DNA from: Devosia sp. 66-14
GTDB taxonomy: Bacteria; Pseudomonadota; Alphaproteobacteria; Rhizobiales; Devosiaceae
Direction of reading: 5' to 3'
Assembly (NCBI GenBank): GCA_001899085.1
Contig: MKVB01000008.1
Coordinates: 43,938-107,937, forward strand
Length of the DNA stretch: 64,000 nucleotides
Part shown: piece after piece, positions 7,114-62,916 of the stretch
Layout of the letters: every line of letters starts with the position of its first letter
Numbering within the stretch: position 1 is the stretch's first letter
The notes under the pieces: model-generated
What the model was told of the DNA's origin: nothing
Database searches by the model: none
Seen by the model: only the letters and a program-made list of their open reading frames with translations
Program-made: the position numbers and the translations under genes

Positions 7114-7932
7114 TCACGCCACCTGAGCCGGCTGGGCCGACGCGCTCGGGAAACGGCTCTGCTGCGTGCCGACGATTTCCGCCTTGATGGCGTTGGTGAG
7201 GTCGAAGACCTCCTTGGTCGACATGATCTCGAGCGAGCGCGGGCGCGGGAACGGGACTTCGTGGATATTGGCGACCCGGCCGGGTCGCGGGCTCATCACC
7301 ACCACGCGGTCGGAGAGGAAGATGGCTTCCTCGATCGAGTGGGTGATGAGGACGATGGTGGTTCTGGTATCGAGCCAGATTTCCTCGACCAGCCGGTTCA
7401 TCTCCTCGCGGGTGAAGGCGTCGAGCGCGCCGAACGGCTCGTCCATCAGCAGCACCGAAGGCTTGTAGCTGAGGGCGCGGACCAGAGCCGCGCGCTGCTG
7501 CATGCCGCCCGACAACTCGCGGGGGAAGCGCCCGCCGAAGCCTTCGAGGCCGACGCGGTTCAGCAGCTCATCGATCCAGACGCGGTCGGGCTTGGTGCCC
7601 TTGATCTCGAAGGGGAAGTTGATGTTGGCGTCGAGATTGCGCCAGGGCAGGAGGTTGGCCTCCTGGAAGACCATGCCGATCTCGGGATTGGGGCCGGTGA
7701 CCGGCTTGCCGTCGAGCAGCACTTCGCCGGAGGTGAGGCCGTGCAACCCCGACATCGACCACAACAGCGTGGTCTTGCCGCAACCGGAAGGGCCGACAAT
7801 CGACACGATCTCGCCGTCCATCACGTCGAGCGAGCAGCGATCGATCGCCAACAGGTCACCCGAGCGGGTGTTGTAGACCTTGGTGGCGCCCCTTACCCGT
7901 AGTTTCGGTTGCTTGGAATCTCCAGCTGTCAT
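7114..7932 (-). CDS. ABC transporter ATP-binding protein (SsuB/TauB/NrtD-like)
   Basis: 272 residues. Walker A GPSGCGKTT is near residue 47, the Q-loop is MVFQEANLLPW, the signature is LSGGMQQRAALVRAL, Walker B is VLLMDEPFGALD and the switch histidine lies in LITHSIEEA. This is the nitrate/sulfonate/taurine class of ATPases. It is the first gene of the minus-strand group and is divergent from an RpiR/MurR-type regulator, with 311 bases between the two starts, so control by that regulator is likely (inference). Confidence 0.92.
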   Translation of the reverse strand: MTAGDSKQPKLRVRGATKVYNTRSGDLLAIDRCSLDVMDGEIVSIVGPSGCGKTTLLWSMSGLHGLTSGEVLLDGKPVTGPNPEIGMVFQEANLLPWRNLDANINFPFEIKGTKPDRVWIDELLNRVGLEGFGGRFPRELSGGMQQRAALVRALSYKPSVLLMDEPFGALDAFTREEMNRLVEEIWLDTRTTIVLITHSIEEAIFLSDRVVVMSPRPGRVANIHEVPFPRPRSLEIMSTKEVFDLTNAIKAEIVGTQQSRFPSASAQPAQVA

Positions 7933-8018
7933 CGCCCCTCGCGCTGCCCCGTATCAGACTATGGAACGGCTTCCGGGCGCTCCCTGTTGCGCCCTCATCC
8001 CCGTCCGTAAGCCAGTCT

Positions 8019-8031
8019 GTAACTATCCTAC
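8019..8031 (+). promoter_or_regulatory. Candidate operator half: 13-base direct repeat, copy 1
   Basis: GTAACTATCCTAC matches copy 2 (GTAAGTTTCCTAC at 8117) at 11 of 13 positions, 98 bases apart, in the divergent region between the importer and the RpiR-type regulator. Paired direct repeats in such a position are a plausible regulator-binding arrangement; no published site is claimed. Confidence 0.35.
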
Positions 8032-8116
8032 TTTCCGAGTCAAGCGGCTGTCGGATTAGTTTCATCGTTCGCAGATAACTGCCGATTTCGCAGGCATCTT
8101 GGCGCTTGCGTCGTGT

Positions 8117-8129
8117 GTAAGTTTCCTAC
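8117..8129 (+). promoter_or_regulatory. Candidate operator half: 13-base direct repeat, copy 2
   Basis: GTAAGTTTCCTAC, related to copy 1 at 8019-8031. It lies about 115 bases before the preferred start of the regulator gene and nearly 190 bases before the first importer gene on the other strand. Confidence 0.35.
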
Positions 8130-8243
8130 ATTGTGCCGCGAAACGGGCGGCGAGGCACCGCCGGCGAGGCGTTTTCCGGGTAGGGCATTGGCTGGTCAGA
8201 AATGATAGAAGTCGCGTCGGACCCAACAGCCGGAAGGCCGGAT

Positions 8244-9173
8244 ATGCGCAAGCCCAGGCGCGATGACACAAGCAGTGAAGGCTACGCCAAGCCGATCCCC
8301 GACATCCTGTCGCAGATCAAGGATTCCTACAGCGAACTCCGGCCGGCCGAGCGGCGGGTCGCCGACGTGGTGCTGGCCGATGTCACCTTCTCAGTCGATG
8401 CCTCGAACGCCGAGATCGCGCGGCGCGCCGAAGTCAGCGAGCCGACGGTGACCCGCTTCTGCCGCGCCATCGGGTGCGACGGGGTGCGCGATTTCAAGCT
8501 GAAGCTGGCGCAAAGCGTCGTGGTGGGGCGGCTCTATCTCGCGCCGGCGCCGCCGGCCGGCGATGTCAGTTCCAATGCCTCGCCGCTCTGGACCGAAGTG
8601 TTCGGTGAGGCGCGCAACGCGCTCAACCTGGTCGAGCGGCAGATCGACCCGCTCGACATCGTGCGCGCCGCCGAGCTGGTGGCCAGTGCCCACCAGGTGC
8701 TGGTGTTCGGGCTGGGGGGGAGTTCCACCTCGCTGGCGCTCGAAACGCAGAACCGGTTGTTCCGATACGGCGTGGTGGTCAGCGCCCATTCCGATCCCTA
8801 CGTGATGAAGATGACGGCTTCGACCTTGAAGCCGAACGATCTGGTGATCGCCATTTCGGGCACCGGGCGCACCCGCGAAGTGGTGGAGGCGGTGCAACTC
8901 GCCAAGCACTACCGGGCCAAGGCGATCTGCATCACGGCGCCCGACACCGACCTCGCCGCGACGGCCGACGTGGCGCTCACCGTCGATATCCCGGAATTCC
9001 CCGACCCGCTGAAGCCCACCGCTTCGCGCTATGCCTTCCTCGCCATCATCGACCTCGTTTCGAGCGCCGTCGGCACCCGGCTCGATCCCGATGCGCGCGA
9101 GACGCTGCGCCGGATCAAGTACACCGTGCTGAACCATCGCAAGGGCCGGGTGCTGGAGCCGTTGGGCGACTGA
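8244..9173 (+). CDS. MurR/RpiR-family transcriptional regulator (HTH + SIS)
   Basis: 309 residues from the ATG at 8244, which has GGAAGG seven bases upstream; an in-frame ATG at 8202 would add 14 residues but lacks a good ribosome-binding site. The N-terminal HTH_6 domain shows YSELRPAERRVADVVL, NAEIARRAEVSEPTVTRFCRAIG and FKLKLAQS. A SIS sugar-phosphate-binding domain follows (VFGLGGSSTSLA near residue 155; AISGTGRTREVVEA near residue 210). Such proteins respond to phosphosugars. It is divergent from the 4932-7932 importer, which is the obvious target. Confidence 0.9.
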   Translation: MRKPRRDDTSSEGYAKPIPDILSQIKDSYSELRPAERRVADVVLADVTFSVDASNAEIARRAEVSEPTVTRFCRAIGCDGVRDFKLKLAQSVVVGRLYLAPAPPAGDVSSNASPLWTEVFGEARNALNLVERQIDPLDIVRAAELVASAHQVLVFGLGGSSTSLALETQNRLFRYGVVVSAHSDPYVMKMTASTLKPNDLVIAISGTGRTREVVEAVQLAKHYRAKAICITAPDTDLAATADVALTVDIPEFPDPLKPTASRYAFLAIIDLVSSAVGTRLDPDARETLRRIKYTVLNHRKGRVLEPLGD

Positions 9174-56428: not shown

Positions 56429-57649
56429 ATGACCGACATCACCGCCCTCGACGCCGCTGACCCGTTTGCCCGCACGCGAACCCTGTTCGACCTGCCTGAT
56501 GGCATCATCTATCTCGATGGCAATTCGCTCGGGGCGCTGCCGCGCGCGGTGAAGGGGCGGATGGCCGAGGTGGTGGCCACGCAATGGGGCGAGGGGCTGA
56601 TCCGCAGCTGGAACACACATGACTGGATCGACCTGCCGGGACGGGTGGGCGATCGGATCGCCCGGCTGGTCGGCGCCGCTCCGAAGACCGTGATGGTGGC
56701 CGACTCCACTTCGGTCAACCTGTTCAAGGTGCTGGTGACGGCGCTGCGGCTCAGGCCTGGTCGCAAGGTGATCGTCTCGGAGCGAGGGAATTTCCCCACC
56801 GACGCTTATGTCGCGGCAGGTGTCGCAGAACTGCTGGGGCAGGGGCATGAGCTGCGACTGGTGGAGGCAGATGCGATCGCCGCCGCGCTCGGCGAGGATG
56901 TGGCGGTGCTGTTACTGACCGAGGTCAACTATCGCACCGGCGCGAAGCTCGACATGGCCGGGCTGACGGCGATGGCGCACGCGGCGGGCGCGCTGACGAT
57001 CTGGGACCTTTGCCACTCGGCCGGGGCGTTTCCGGTCGAGCTGGGCGGCGCAGCTGCCGATTTCGCCGTCGGCTGCGGCTACAAATATCTCAATGGCGGG
57101 CCCGGGGCGCCGGCCTTCGTCTATGCCGCACCGCGACATCTGGATGGGCTGCGGCAGCCGCTGACCGGGTGGTTGGGCCATGCGGCGCCGTTCAGCTTTG
57201 CCGAGGCCTATCGGCCGGCCGAGGGCATCGGGGCAATGCGGGTCGGAACGCCGCCGGTGCTGTCGATGTCGGCGCTAGATGCGGCGCTCGACGTGTTCGA
57301 CGGCGTCGATCTCGGCGCGCTGCGGGCCAAGGCGGACCAGCTGTTCGAGCTGTTCACCAGCGAGGTGAAGCGGCTGGCGCCGGAACTGGAACTGGCGACG
57401 CCCGGTGAGGCGGCGCGGCGCGGCACGCAGGTGTCGCTGCGGCATCCCGAGGCCTATGCGGTGATGCAGGCGCTGATCGCGCGCGGGGTGATCGGCGATT
57501 TTCGCGAACCCGACATCCTGCGCTTCGGGCTGACGCCGCTCTATCTCAGCTTCACCGATGTGCAGCGGGCGGCCGGGATAGTCGGTGAGGTGATGCGCAC
57601 CGGCGCCTGGGATCAGCCGCGCTACAAGGTACGGGCCAAAGTGGTGTGA
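56429..57649 (+). CDS. kynU: Kynureninase
   Basis: 406 residues, the usual bacterial length. IIYLDGNSLGALP near residue 28 and the ADSTSVNLFKVL segment near residue 92 match kynureninase. The PLP lysine lies in GCGYKYLNGGPGAP near residue 213, with the PLP aspartate in TIWDLCHSAGAF near 190. It cleaves kynurenine or 3-hydroxykynurenine to anthranilate(s) and alanine. The other tryptophan-degradation genes (kynA, kynB) are not beside it. Confidence 0.94.
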   Translation: MTDITALDAADPFARTRTLFDLPDGIIYLDGNSLGALPRAVKGRMAEVVATQWGEGLIRSWNTHDWIDLPGRVGDRIARLVGAAPKTVMVADSTSVNLFKVLVTALRLRPGRKVIVSERGNFPTDAYVAAGVAELLGQGHELRLVEADAIAAALGEDVAVLLLTEVNYRTGAKLDMAGLTAMAHAAGALTIWDLCHSAGAFPVELGGAAADFAVGCGYKYLNGGPGAPAFVYAAPRHLDGLRQPLTGWLGHAAPFSFAEAYRPAEGIGAMRVGTPPVLSMSALDAALDVFDGVDLGALRAKADQLFELFTSEVKRLAPELELATPGEAARRGTQVSLRHPEAYAVMQALIARGVIGDFREPDILRFGLTPLYLSFTDVQRAAGIVGEVMRTGAWDQPRYKVRAKVV

Positions 57650-57722: not shown

Positions 57723-58076
57723 CTAAAACAGCTCGGCTTCGCCGTGTACGCCAAAGCTGGCGCTGCCGGAGAGGGCGGGGACGCGCAGCTCGTCGAGCAC
57801 CAGGCTCGACCAGATCTCATCGTAGACCGAGGGCGGAGCGTCCGGCGGCAGGAGCGCGAACTGGCGCACCGCGAGCGCCATGTTCTGGCAGCGCTGCTCG
57901 ATCCGGTCCTGGCCCTGCAGCGCGTTGACGATGATCCGGGCGGCCTGGCGACGGGCCTCGTCAGCGGAGAGCGATTTGTCGGCGAGCAGTTCGAGGGCCT
58001 GCGTCACGCCTTCCACCATGCCGGCGGTCTGGCGTGCTGTTTCATCGAGCTCGCGGGCGAGCCTTTGCAGAGACAT
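57723..58076 (-). CDS. Small helical chemotaxis protein, candidate CheT/CheZ-type phosphatase
   Basis: 117 residues, minus strand, divergent from cheD. It is almost entirely helical and holds a DXXXQ motif: Asp57 and Gln61 in GQDRIEQRCQ, the arrangement of CheZ catalytic residues and of the Sinorhizobium CheT protein that dephosphorylates CheY1. The acidic-hydrophobic C-terminus EAELF may be a response-regulator binding peptide as in CheZ. In Sinorhizobium cheT lies next to cheD; here it is next to cheD but on the opposite strand. The call is inference from motif, size and neighbourhood. Confidence 0.55.
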   Translation of the reverse strand: MSLQRLARELDETARQTAGMVEGVTQALELLADKSLSADEARRQAARIIVNALQGQDRIEQRCQNMALAVRQFALLPPDAPPSVYDEIWSSLVLDELRVPALSGSASFGVHGEAELF

Positions 58077-58204: not shown

Positions 58205-58834
58205 ATGACACCCCAAACTATCGGGTCCAACGTTACTATGGTCATGTCGAGTTCACTGCCGCCCGAGTTCGATCGTGGTGTGGTGACGACCGTACACCAG
58301 GGTGATTGCCTGGTGTCGAATGAAGTGGACCTGACCTTCTCGACCGTGCTCGGCAGCTGCATCTCGGCCTGTGTGCGCGACCGCGCCGCCAATGTCGGCG
58401 GGATGAACCATTTCCTGCTCGCCGAACAGTCGGCCTCGGCGGCCGATCGCTACGGCGCCTCGGCCCGTTACGGCGCCTTCGCCATGGAACAGCTGATCAA
58501 CAAGGTGCTCACCCGCGGCACCGGGCGCAAGGCCAACCTCGAGATCAAGGTGTTCGGCGGCGGCAAGATCAATGGCGCGCTCGACGATATCGGGCTCAAG
58601 AACATCGAGTTCGTACGCGAGTTCCTCGCCAATGAAGGCTACGAGATGGCCAAGGAAGATCTCGGCGGCACCTATGCGCGCCGGGTGATGTTCAAGCCCT
58701 ATTCCGGCCGGGCCTTCGTCAAGCGGCTCGACAATGCCGCCAACGCCTCGATCGCGAGGGAAGAACTGGCAGTGGCCGCCAGCCGCCGCAGCGTCATCAC
58801 CAAGCCGGTGCTCGACGACATCGAGCTGTTCTGA
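58205..58834 (+). CDS. cheD: Chemoreceptor glutamine deamidase CheD
   Basis: 209 residues from ATG 58205; TTG 58193 and ATG 58238 or 58244 are in frame and also possible, since no start has a clearly better ribosome-binding site. FSTVLGSCISACVRD near residue 42 has the catalytic cysteine and NVGGMNHFLLAEQ near 62 the histidine; EIKVFGGGKINGAL near 117 is the family loop. The enzyme deamidates receptor glutamines. The C-terminal extension ends in DDIELF. Confidence 0.9.
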   Translation: MTPQTIGSNVTMVMSSSLPPEFDRGVVTTVHQGDCLVSNEVDLTFSTVLGSCISACVRDRAANVGGMNHFLLAEQSASAADRYGASARYGAFAMEQLINKVLTRGTGRKANLEIKVFGGGKINGALDDIGLKNIEFVREFLANEGYEMAKEDLGGTYARRVMFKPYSGRAFVKRLDNAANASIAREELAVAASRRSVITKPVLDDIELF

Positions 58835-58988: not shown

Positions 58989-60500
58989 GTGCGGCGCTTC
59001 AGTGTGGCGCTCATCGCTAATCTATGCTGGCTTGCCGCTCTCGTGGTTGCGGCCGGGGGCGTGCTGCTGTTCGGCGTCGGACTGTTGAGCGCGCTGCTGG
59101 CGCTGGCCGCCGCGGGGGGCGCAGCGATCGGTGCATTCATCATTGCCGAGCGCGCCGACCGCACCTTCTCGACCCGGCTCAGCACGATCGGCCAGGCGGT
59201 CGGGGTGCGTGCCGGCGAAGCCACCAGCCTCGAAGCCATTGTGCAGAGCCTCTGCACCCGGCTGGACCGAGCCTACAATTTCAAAGCGGCGTTCGGCAGC
59301 CTGAGGCAGCCTGCGGCGCTGATCGACAGCGATGGCGAGATCCTCGGGGTCAGCAACGGCCTCGTGCTGGTCGAACCGAAAGCCGAGGAAGGCGGTCTCG
59401 TTTCCGACGTGCTCGGCGGTGACATGCTGCTCGAAGACATGGCCGAGGAGAGTATCGTCGTGGTGGGCGACCGTCGCTACGTCGCCGAGCGGCGCGAACT
59501 CGGCGGCGGGCGCTCGATCATCGAGTTCACCCCGGCCGGCTACCAGATCGCCGATGACGATTTCGATGCCTTCGTCAGTGCACTGGCCAATGGCCGCACC
59601 GGCTTCCGCTTCGACGACTGGGGCATGCAGCATTCGCCGGCGCTGAAGGCGTTGGGCGGGGCGCTGGAGCAATTCGACAAATCGGTGAAGGCGATCGGCC
59701 AGTTGCTGCGCGGCGAAGAGATCGATGCGCTGCTGCTGATGGGCGCCGGGGCATTGGCGCCGGAGCTCAGGCAGTTCGAGCAATATCTCAACGCCATGCT
59801 GGTCGAGCGTGAGGAAGCGCTGATGGCGCGTGCCCATCTCGAGGCCAAGATGGAGGCGATCCTGCGCGCCATCGACCGCTACCGCGCCAGCGTCACCAGC
59901 CTCGCCGAACTCGCCGACCAGAGTCGGGCCGGGCTCAGTGTCGCCTCGTCGGCCATCGAGAAGGGCCGCGCCAAGGCACAATCGGTGCGCGCGCTGGAGC
60001 GGCAGGCAGTGGCGCTGGCCGCCGATGCGGCGCTTGCCGTACAGCGCACCAGCGTCTCGGTCGGTGGTGTGGAGAGCACCACCGCCGAGATCGACCGGAT
60101 GGTGTCGAGCATCGAAGATGTGAGCTTCCGCACGAACCTGTTGGCGCTCAATGCCGCAGTCGAGGCGGCGCGGGCGGGCGAGAAGGGCGCCGGCTTCGCC
60201 GCGGTGGCGGCCGAGGTGCGCACCCTGGCGCAGGCGACGCAGAAGGCGGCGCGCGAGATCAAGTCGCTGGTCGGCACGTCGCGGCGCGAGGCCAGCGCTT
60301 CGGTCGAGCAGGCCGCCTCGCTCAAAAAGATTCTCTCCGGCCTCGGCGGACATTTAGAGAATCTAAGCAATGAGACGGACATGATCGCCGGTGCACTGGA
60401 TGAGGGCAGCGGCGCCATCGCCCGGCTGGACGGCAGCGTGGCTGCGGTCGGCTCGGAAGCTGCGAAAGCCCTGCAACTCCCGGCGCGCAAGCGGGCCTAG
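58989..60500 (+). CDS. Methyl-accepting chemotaxis protein, short atypical form
   Basis: 503 residues from GTG 58989. Two membrane helices run back to back at residues ~5-53 with almost no periplasmic loop, so sensing is probably cytoplasmic. Residues ~60-270 contain a PAS-like or unknown region ([20 protein letters not shown]). The signalling tip lies at ~375-412 ([21 protein letters not shown]), followed by only ~90 residues. It lies between cheD and cheR, so it probably feeds the same pathway. Confidence 0.87.
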
Positions 60501-60521: not shown

Positions 60522-61385
60522 ATGGATCAGGGCGAATTTGCCCTCAGTGACCGCGAGTTCAATCGGGTCAAGGCACGCGTCTATCAGGAAGCCGGAATCT
60601 CGCTGTCGGAGGCCAAGCGCACCCTGGTGGTGTCGCGGCTGGGCAAGCTCGTTCGCACGCTGCGGCTGAGTTCGTTCGATGCCTATCTCGATTATCTCGA
60701 GCGGCAGGGCACCCCTGCCGATGCGCAGGACTTCATCAACGCGCTGACCACCAACCTCACCCGGTTCTGGCGCGAGGATCACCATTTCGATCATCTCGAG
60801 AACTATGTGCGCCAGCTGATGACGCAGCGGCCGCGGATGGGGGCGAACGGGCGGCCGAAGTTGCGGATCTGGTCGGCCGGCTGTTCGACCGGGCAGGAGC
60901 CCTACACCATCGCCCTGAGCCTGCTTTCGGCCTTCCCGGAGCTCAAGCGCTGGGATTTCCGCATCCTTGCCACCGACATCGACACCAATGTGGTGGCCAA
61001 GGCGGCGGGCGGGGTCTATCCGGAAGCCGAGCTCAACGGACTGTCGCGCGAGCGGGCGGCGCTGTTCGAGCGCGCCGAGGCGGGGCAAGTGCGGATCCCG
61101 ATGGCGGTGCGCGAGCTGATCGCCTTCAAGCCGCTCAACCTGATGAGCAATCCCTGGCCGATGAAGGGTCCGTTCGACGCGGTGTTCTGCCGCAACGTCG
61201 CGATCTATTTCGACAAGAAGACGCAAGGCGAGCTGTTCGCGCGGCTGGGAGCGATCCTCGCGCCGGACGGCTTCCTCTATATCGGGCATTCCGAGAACCT
61301 GGGCGCCGGCGGCGCCAATTTCCGACTGGTCGGCAAGACCATCTATCAGGCACGTGCACAGCAGAAGGCGAGGGACGCAGCATGA
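60522..61385 (+). CDS. cheR: Chemotaxis protein methyltransferase CheR
   Basis: 287 residues. The N-terminal helical domain begins FNRVKARVYQEAGISL, and the SAM domain shows IWSAGCSTGQEPYTIAL near residue 117 and DFRILATDIDTNVV near 146, then FDAVFCRNVAIYFDKKTQ near 220. The gene starts 21 bases after the methyl-accepting protein and overlaps cheB by four bases (ATGA). Confidence 0.95.
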   Translation: MDQGEFALSDREFNRVKARVYQEAGISLSEAKRTLVVSRLGKLVRTLRLSSFDAYLDYLERQGTPADAQDFINALTTNLTRFWREDHHFDHLENYVRQLMTQRPRMGANGRPKLRIWSAGCSTGQEPYTIALSLLSAFPELKRWDFRILATDIDTNVVAKAAGGVYPEAELNGLSRERAALFERAEAGQVRIPMAVRELIAFKPLNLMSNPWPMKGPFDAVFCRNVAIYFDKKTQGELFARLGAILAPDGFLYIGHSENLGAGGANFRLVGKTIYQARAQQKARDAA

Positions 61386-62428
61386 GCATCAAGGTGCTGG
61401 TCGTCGATGACTCCGCGCTTATTCGCGAGGTGCTGAGCCGCACGCTGGGCAAGGATGGCGACATCATCGTGGTCGGCACGGCCGAGGACCCGATCGAGGC
61501 GCGCTCCAAGGTCAAGGACCTCAATCCCGACGTGCTGACGCTCGATATCGAGATGCCCAACATGAACGGGCTGCAGTTCCTCGACAAGCTGATGCGGCTT
61601 CATCCGCTGCCGGTGGTGATGGTCTCCACGCTGACCACCAAGGGAGCGAGCGAGACGCTGCTGGCGCTGGAACTGGGCGCGGTGGATTTCGTCGCCAAGC
61701 CCAACGCGACGCTGTCGGGCGGGCTCGACGCGTTCGGCGAGAACCTGCGCCAGAAGGTGCGGGCAGCGGCTCATTCCGATGTGAAGGGTCGCGCCATGAA
61801 GGCCCCGATGGCCAAGGTGCCGGTGCGCACCGCCGCAGCGCCGAACGGCGCGCTGATCGCCATCGGCGCTTCGACCGGCGGGGTCGAGGCGATCCGCGTG
61901 GTGCTTAGCGAAATGCCGCCCGATTGCCCGCCCATCGTCATCGCCCAGCACATGCCGGCCGGTTTCACCAGCCGCTTTGCCGGCCGGCTGGACGAACTGA
62001 CCGAACTCAAGGTGGTGGAAGCCGAGGACCGCATGCCGCTCCTGACCGGCCATGCCTATGTGGCGCGCGGCGACTTTCACCTGCGGGTGGAGCGCAGCTC
62101 GGGCCAGCTCAAATGCCGGGTGACGCAGGACGAGCTGATGTCCGGGCACCGGCCCAGCGTCGACGTGCTGTTCGAATCGGTGGCCAGGACCGTCGGGCCG
62201 ATGGCGGTCGGCGCCATTCTCACCGGCATGGGGCGCGACGGGGCGCGCGGCTTGAAGCTGATGCGCGAAGCGGGCGCCTACACGGTGGGGCAGAGCCAGG
62301 CTTCGGCACTGGTCTATGGCATGCCGCGCGTGGCGTTCGAAGAGGGCGCAGTGATCGAGCAGGCCCCGGTCGAAGGCATCGCCGCCCGGCTGGCGGCAGC
62401 GCTCACCCGGCTCAAATCCGCAGCATAA
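61382..62428 (+). CDS. cheB: Protein-glutamate methylesterase CheB
   Basis: 348 residues. The receiver domain has VDDSALIRE near residue 8 and the phosphoacceptor in LTLDIEMPNMNGL near residue 58; K in VAKPNAT near 107. The methylesterase domain starts near residue 155 with IAIGASTGGVEAI (catalytic Ser), QHMPAGFTSRFA (His) near 183 and ILTGMGRDGARG (Asp) near 279. Phosphorylation by CheA would activate demethylation of receptors. Confidence 0.95.
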   Translation: MSIKVLVVDDSALIREVLSRTLGKDGDIIVVGTAEDPIEARSKVKDLNPDVLTLDIEMPNMNGLQFLDKLMRLHPLPVVMVSTLTTKGASETLLALELGAVDFVAKPNATLSGGLDAFGENLRQKVRAAAHSDVKGRAMKAPMAKVPVRTAAAPNGALIAIGASTGGVEAIRVVLSEMPPDCPPIVIAQHMPAGFTSRFAGRLDELTELKVVEAEDRMPLLTGHAYVARGDFHLRVERSSGQLKCRVTQDELMSGHRPSVDVLFESVARTVGPMAVGAILTGMGRDGARGLKLMREAGAYTVGQSQASALVYGMPRVAFEEGAVIEQAPVEGIAARLAAALTRLKSAA

Positions 62429-62526: not shown

Positions 62527-62916
62527 ATGCCGAAGGCAAGTGCAGTCAGTGTGATGATCGTCGATGACCAGCAGTCGATGCGGGGCATCTGCAAATACAT
62601 CCTCACGCAGCTGGGATTCACCAACATCGTCGAAGCCAAGTCGGGGCGCGATGCGCTCGGCAAGCTCGAAAAGAGCAGTGTCGACCTGATCATTTCCGAC
62701 TGGAACATGGACGACATCGACGGGCTGACGCTGCTGCGCGTCATCCGCAAGCACCCCAAGACGCAGGGTATGCCATTCATCATGGCCACCGGCCGCTCCG
62801 ACAAGGAGCAGGTGAAAGAGGCAATCTCGTCGGGGGTCAACAATTACATCATCAAGCCGTTCGACGCCTCGACCATGAAGAAGCGGATCGAGGCGGTGAT
62901 CGGCGTGCTGTCCTAG
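62527..62916 (+). CDS. cheY: Single-domain response regulator CheY
   Basis: 129 residues. The acidic pocket is VDDQQSM near residue 12, phosphoacceptor Asp in IISDWNMDDIDG near 58, the Thr switch in IMATGRSD near 87 and lysine in IIKPFDAS near 109. With the CheT/CheZ-like protein and cheD in the same cluster, this may be the motor or sink response regulator; which one cannot be decided here. It is followed by an intrinsic terminator. Confidence 0.93.
   Translation: MPKASAVSVMIVDDQQSMRGICKYILTQLGFTNIVEAKSGRDALGKLEKSSVDLIISDWNMDDIDGLTLLRVIRKHPKTQGMPFIMATGRSDKEQVKEAISSGVNNYIIKPFDASTMKKRIEAVIGVLS

Follow-up and report, generated by a model that had tools for sequence, protein, structure and literature searches.

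The window analysed here, a 64,000-nucleotide stretch of the genome of Devosia sp. 66-14, carries a small reading frame between kynU and cheD on the strand opposite to both, upstream of a run of chemotaxis genes (Table 1). A first-pass annotation, made from the sequence alone, had proposed that its product is a CheT/CheZ-type phosphatase; the coordinates, the minus-strand orientation, the length of 117 residues, the DRIEQ motif spanning D57 to Q61 and the identity of the two flanking genes are all as it had described them.

Table 1 Features of the cheD region in the window and fused MCP-signalling proteins at other loci (L numbers)
Feature	Coordinates	Strand	Remarks
kynU	56429..57649	+	start inferred; PF22580, PF00266; outside the che system
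cheT-like gene, 117 aa	57723..58076	-	stop codon within the coordinates; conservation and profile match
Codons of conserved C-terminal tail GEAELF	57726..57743	-	proposed docking peptide; disordered in the model
Codons D57-R-I-E-Q61	57894..57908	-	proposed phosphatase motif, inside LQxxDxxxQ; invariance and CheT alignment
Inverted repeat GTTAG-N7-CTAA	58173..58188	.	conserved; in the spacer separating the cheT-like gene from divergent cheD; may be an operator or promoter element
cheD	58238..58834	+	PF03975; start inferred from conservation; ends DDIELF (58817-58834)
mcp	58989..60500	+	MCP signalling domain PF00015
cheR	60522..61385	+	
cheB	61382..62428	+	
cheY	62527..62916	+	in the cheY2 position (after cheB); candidate substrate
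Fused MCP-signalling proteins	L167 7549-8592; L168 7626-8750; L169 C-terminal part of 7196-8755; L172; L173; L175		
Fused MCP-signalling proteins	L133 604-1863; L136 778-1890; L132 1405-2505; L232 5140-6381; L234-L247		

That the reading frame is a real gene follows from its recurrence, with a match in 125 of 136 Devosiaceae genomes (114 of 119 among the more complete ones), and from an excess of synonymous over non-synonymous codon differences against each of five relatives (26 versus 4 for L001, 34 versus 26 for L007), the changes falling mostly at third positions. Species genomes yielded 65 loci, of which 55 carry the title Devosia. In a congener assembled as a single contig (G088:C1:1683520-1683869) the cheT-type gene appears as two overlapping frames and is broken or mis-sequenced. 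A generic annotation would indeed fail to flag the gene as chemotactic, as the first-pass annotation had supposed: no Pfam family scored above cut-off for the window protein, the weak matches to DUF982 (E 0.0048) and ParB (E 0.036) both being sub-threshold, and no NCBIfam family matched it at E values up to 10.

Three observations had been named in advance as speaking against the proposal: homologues lying mainly outside che clusters, loss of Asp57 or Gln61 in close homologues, and a predicted fold without a long helical hairpin. As to the first, the gene stands beside cheD at all 86 loci of our synteny set (the window, L001-L065 and L096-L115), and at all 86 it is divergent from cheD. Mechanical ORF starts give divergence at 84 of the 86; the starts at L060 and L115 lie too far upstream, and both pairs are divergent once the starts are set by alignment. 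The opposite orientation described for the window is thus real, not peculiar to this genome, and the rule across the Devosiaceae loci examined. Their basic order is cheY1-cheA-cheW > < cheT cheD > (mcp) > cheR > cheB > cheY, frequently preceded by a cheS-like gene, and cheW was the next gene on the other side, pointing towards the cheT-like gene, at 7 of the 14 loci whose gene order was drawn completely. The che locus of the window genome is divided: cheS-cheY1-cheA-cheW lie on another contig (G000:C3, L225 4290-7821), and kynU is a neighbour shared with only 6 of the 85 other loci, all of them from close relatives. The S. meliloti che locus reads, on one strand, STAS-response regulator-cheA-cheW-cheR-cheB-response regulator-cheD-cheT, which bears out the earlier statement that Sinorhizobium cheT is placed after cheD.

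In the window the first in-frame ATG of cheD lies 128 bp from the start of the cheT-like gene (median 164, range 35-283 across the 86 loci). The intergenic region holds the conserved inverted repeat listed in Table 1, whose exact pattern occurs twice across all 5.7 Mb of the genome, against 7 and 6 occurrences in the reversed-pattern control; no evident che gene adjoins the second copy. A second conserved intergenic block, about TTTCTRAA-N5-CTTGC, is found nearer to cheT in the relatives. A separate, putative promoter for the cheT-like gene is plausible.

The DXXXQ motif turns up by chance in 43% of 20,000 composition shuffles of the window protein, so its mere presence says little, and the weight lies on its conservation. 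In the 88 different sequences that 116 loci provided (the window, genome contigs and the loci with G handles, some genomes being represented twice), Asp57 and Gln61 are invariant in 88/88, as are Q54, R58, R62 and the Phe of the terminal column; Q56 is kept in 87 and L53 in 84. Besides Asp57 and Gln61, the invariant positions of a 33-row alignment are M1, A7, E9, L10, E12, L31, Q54, R58, R62, W89, E96, L97 and F117. The protein tails end in [ED][LF]F at 85 of the 86 Devosiaceae loci. At L005 (8001-8384) the cheT-type frame continues past the usual end, and the ELF tail is not C-terminal there.

An AlphaFold2 model computed from a 53-row alignment predicts the helical product and the long helical hairpin that had been expected, with helices at residues 2-31, 38-53, 56-74 and 82-91 and a mean pLDDT of 81.5. 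In blocks of ten residues the mean pLDDT lies between 84 and 97 over residues 1-90, and values fall under 50 at residues 97-100 and 102-117, so that the conserved tail is disordered in the model. D57 and Q61 are placed one turn apart at the start of helix 56-74. A Foldseek search of the model against the PDB returned nothing significant, all matches listed having E values of at least 0.88 and CheZ not being among the best 50, and a sequence search of the PDB with the window protein likewise gave nothing useful (best E 0.11).

The comparison with CheT was made at the profile level. S. meliloti CheT, the study of which is reportedly that of Agbekudzi et al. 2024, was reached via a rhizobial relative and corresponds to UIJ95574.1 (CP090106.1 703671-704045, annotated there as 'hypothetical protein'); it scores 225.5 bits against the NCBIfam model NF047973, 'chemotaxis protein CheT', whose cut-off is 200. 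By synteny and profile search we gathered 17 CheT-type proteins from che loci. Only Q54, D57 and Q61 (S. meliloti numbering) are kept in all 17, and the 88 Devosia-family sequences all keep them too. When 33 Devosiaceae members were aligned by hhalign with the 17 CheT-type proteins, the match had an E value of 2.4e-6 and a probability of 89% over residues 3-117, and D57 and Q61 of the window protein fell on D57 and Q61 of S. meliloti CheT. Since the helical CheT profile also matches keratin coiled coils in the PDB (E 8e-7), which counts against the match, heptad-preserving shuffles were needed as a control: the score of 39.1 was reached by none of 150 column shuffles (best 22.9) and by none of 150 heptad-preserving ones (best 21.9).

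With 14 CheT members the E value was 3e-6, or 8e-7 after the f40 intermediate had been added on the Devosia side, and when 6565 ORFs were ranked with a 14-member CheT-type profile that contained no Devosia sequence, the Devosia family came out on top (best E 1.1e-5). Smaller CheT sets gave weak results (E 0.0012 with a probability of 19% for the smallest set, E 0.0097 for another), and the match became firm as more CheT sequences were added. An intermediate from another family (G302) has a cheT-like gene divergent from cheD, with the motif LQAEDRIRQ and the tail EIELF, and reached E 6e-8 with the A2 profile. Further points count against the match: the Devosia profiles rank S. meliloti CheT only 20th of 1293 ORFs (E 1.9), identity between it and the window protein is about 19%, and the two genes are oriented differently with respect to cheD. 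NF047973 does not match the window protein at E values up to 10 and was not among the matches listed (25 of 27 families) for the 33 Devosiaceae members. The model is a narrow one: L171 passes with 215.6 bits, but L178, a rhizobial-type protein likewise encoded behind cheD, gets 47.3, and among the 17 CheT-type proteins 11 have a match at E values up to 10. The lack of a match marks the window protein as a distant CheT homologue and not as an equivalog member. Taken together, the profile comparison for which the first-pass annotation had called shows profile-level homology between the cheT-like product and S. meliloti CheT, and the window protein is, judged by its sequence, an inverted and strongly diverged CheT-type protein.

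The acidic tail has a similar counterpart in CheD. CheD ends in DIELF at 83 of the 86 Devosiaceae loci, the exceptions being L042, where the frame is lost, and L060 and L115, where the end is EIEMF; in other CheD proteins an [ILV][EDQ][LF]F end was present in 20 of 20, some with an additional final D. The tails of the 17 CheT-type proteins are more varied, nine ending in Phe after L, F or A, three having LF a few residues before the end and five being without such a tail. The CheD and CheT-type variants agree within some clusters (VQLF with VQLF at L172, L173 and L175, IDLF at L167, IELF at L168) and disagree within others (LELF versus CEFF at L178, VELF versus IELF at L169, and also L183). 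The simplest reading of these similar tails is a putative common docking site.

The gene probably encodes the CheT-type protein, a putative CheY~P phosphatase, of the main chemotaxis system of this bacterium. S. meliloti CheT dephosphorylates one CheY and also binds CheR, according to the review PMC12654446. For the Devosia product we infer that it most likely does the job of CheT, the dephosphorylation of CheY~P. Two hairpins would pair, and the tail G[DE]xELF would dock on a CheY, so that Asp57 and Gln61 could reach into its active site. In CheZ, Gln147 positions the attacking water, and Gln61 would place it in the same manner. Dephosphorylation of CheY~P would then end the swimming signal quickly. 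By analogy with S. meliloti, one CheY should be preferred, either the one encoded in the window or the CheY1 encoded together with cheA on the other contig, and the product may bind CheR as well. With the gene turned round in the Devosiaceae and transcribed away from cheD, its level should be uncoupled from that of the cheD-mcp-cheR-cheB-cheY genes.

The strongest alternative, which we regard as improbable, though still worth weighing, is an adaptor derived from CheT whose phosphatase activity is low or absent and which mainly binds CheR or CheD or holds CheY, with D57 and Q61 serving structure or binding. The CheR binding of the S. meliloti protein would fit such a role, the similar C-terminal tails of CheT-type proteins and CheD in many genomes suggest a shared partner, and the 33-row alignment has the other invariant residues listed above. 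Across the 17 CheT-type and 88 family members together, however, the invariant residues are the D and the Q of the motif and the Q preceding them, and the window genome is without CheZ, no match to PF04344 being found in it; both points speak against the adaptor.

The other half of the earlier proposal, kinship with CheZ, did not hold up beyond analogy, while the CheT half stands as homology, though distant. A true CheZ that has become short is very unlikely. In its favour, QDRIEQR resembles the QD[ILM]TGQR present in 20 of 20 alphaproteobacterial CheZ proteins fetched, and the motifs are in register when the Devosia profile is aligned by hhalign with sets of 15 and 20 of them; moreover, 15 of the 20 end in DID[AS]LF plus one residue. 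These alignments reach E values of only 0.0036 to 0.062, compared with 2.4e-6 for the CheT-type proteins. Their scores, 17.4-24.7 against shuffle maxima of 18.7-23.1, are at or just above the shuffle level, narrowly exceeding all 100 shuffles in four of six comparisons (one of the values for A2 against CheZ equals the real score and may be a repeat of it), and there is no PF04344 match to the window protein, so that membership in CheZ is not supported. Of 199 genomes sampled from the order, 126 match PF04344 (121 above cut-off), but only one of the seven Devosiaceae in the sample (G113) and two of 12 other sampled genomes with a cheT-type gene at cheD (G302 and, weakly, G266) do so. This scarcity of CheZ fits a replacement of CheZ by CheT, although common ancestry confounds the comparison. 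A small helical protein of unrelated origin that stands at cheD by chance, for example a DUF982- or ParB-like one, is hardly credible: the sub-threshold DUF982 and ParB matches and the ease with which DXXXQ arises by chance are outweighed by the conservation, the invariant motif, the constant che synteny and the shuffle-controlled profile homology to CheT.

Unexpectedly, the Devosia profile also matches the ends of proteins of about 350-425 residues (Table 1). The four that we scanned have an MCP signalling domain (PF00015, E 4e-24 to 1.6e-17), and this domain is followed in the fused proteins by QFQDRxxQ and then by a tail ending in [IV][EDQ]LF. The fused protein comes after cheB in five of the six clusters that hold one; at L169, the remaining cluster, the adjoining gene is obscured by an overlapping mechanical ORF. 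A profile of the fused module matched the Devosia family at E 2.4e-9 and CheT at E 2.1e-7, each score being reached by none of 150 heptad-preserving shuffles, and the arms of ordinary MCPs, used as a control with only seven arms, gave no signal. A PDB sequence search with the module gave nothing useful. In 397 genomes of the order we found 14 fused proteins, from five families other than the Devosiaceae, at E 7e-25 or better, eight of the 14 being the profile's own rows. All 14 combine an MCP tip, QFQD[RL]xxQ and a tail (GIEFF in one), and the module lies 114 residues after the tip in all five measured. One named example is WP_075382284.1 of Methylobacterium oryzae, which is annotated only as a methyl-accepting chemotaxis protein.

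A third architecture consists of frames of 579-744 residues with QVGD[AS][TP]RQ or Q[AST]GD[AS]TRQ and acidic tails that vary in form, found in seven Devosiaceae (G000, G043, G120, G017, G052, G060 and G050) and in family f35. The window genome itself has such an ORF of 622 residues (G000:C5, L264 5876-7744, minus strand) directly after the cheB of a second chemosensory cluster; its MCPsignal match is sub-threshold (23.6 versus 34.6 bits), and it is a degenerate MCP-like protein.

These findings raise the possibility, which we put forward tentatively, that LQxxDxxxQ together with an acidic '-ELF' tail forms a reusable CheY-phosphatase module of alphaproteobacterial chemotaxis, one that can stand by itself, its gene facing either way within the che locus, or can form the C-terminus of soluble MCP-signalling proteins or an internal part of long, degenerate MCP-like ones, with CheD carrying a similar docking tail. 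If the receptor-fused form works alike, some receptors would carry their own signal-terminating enzyme, and signal termination would be built into a receptor-like protein; in the open-access literature no description of this was among the matches listed. The similar tails would mean that deamidase and phosphatase have one partner in common, CheY~P or CheR, for which they compete or by which they are recruited, which offers a testable hypothesis for the coupling of adaptation and signal termination. NF047973, the only CheT model found, recognises proteins close to rhizobial CheT and misses the window protein; several che-cluster proteins of like motif and position are also missed or score well under its cut-off, and there is no matching Pfam model. 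The present work extends CheT-type proteins to a whole bacterial family that is mostly without CheZ in our sample, and provides a signature for finding more; for CheT with Devosia, no chemotaxis title was among the matches listed in the open-access literature.

Among known systems, the protein is closest to S. meliloti CheT. Both are small, have LQxxDxxxQ with D57 and Q61 and carry an acidic, Phe-ended tail (GDFEAF in S. meliloti, GEAELF in the window); their che loci also encode CheD, two CheYs and a STAS protein of the CheS type, and neither belongs to a Pfam family. The Devosia type differs in having QDRIEQR in place of IDLAVQK and a conserved W..LxLDEL stretch, and its gene is divergent from cheD, whereas S. 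meliloti cheT follows it. With CheZ (PF04344) it has in common the D-xxx-Q on a helix, the QDxxxQR form seen in alphaproteobacterial CheZ and a flexible acidic C-terminal peptide that somewhat resembles the tails of the latter, but it is only about half as long and the profile similarity is not clear. The fused MCP proteins, such as WP_075382284.1, share the QFQDRxxQ module and the ..[IV][EDQ]LF tail; there the module sits behind an MCP signalling hairpin, whereas the Devosia protein stands alone.
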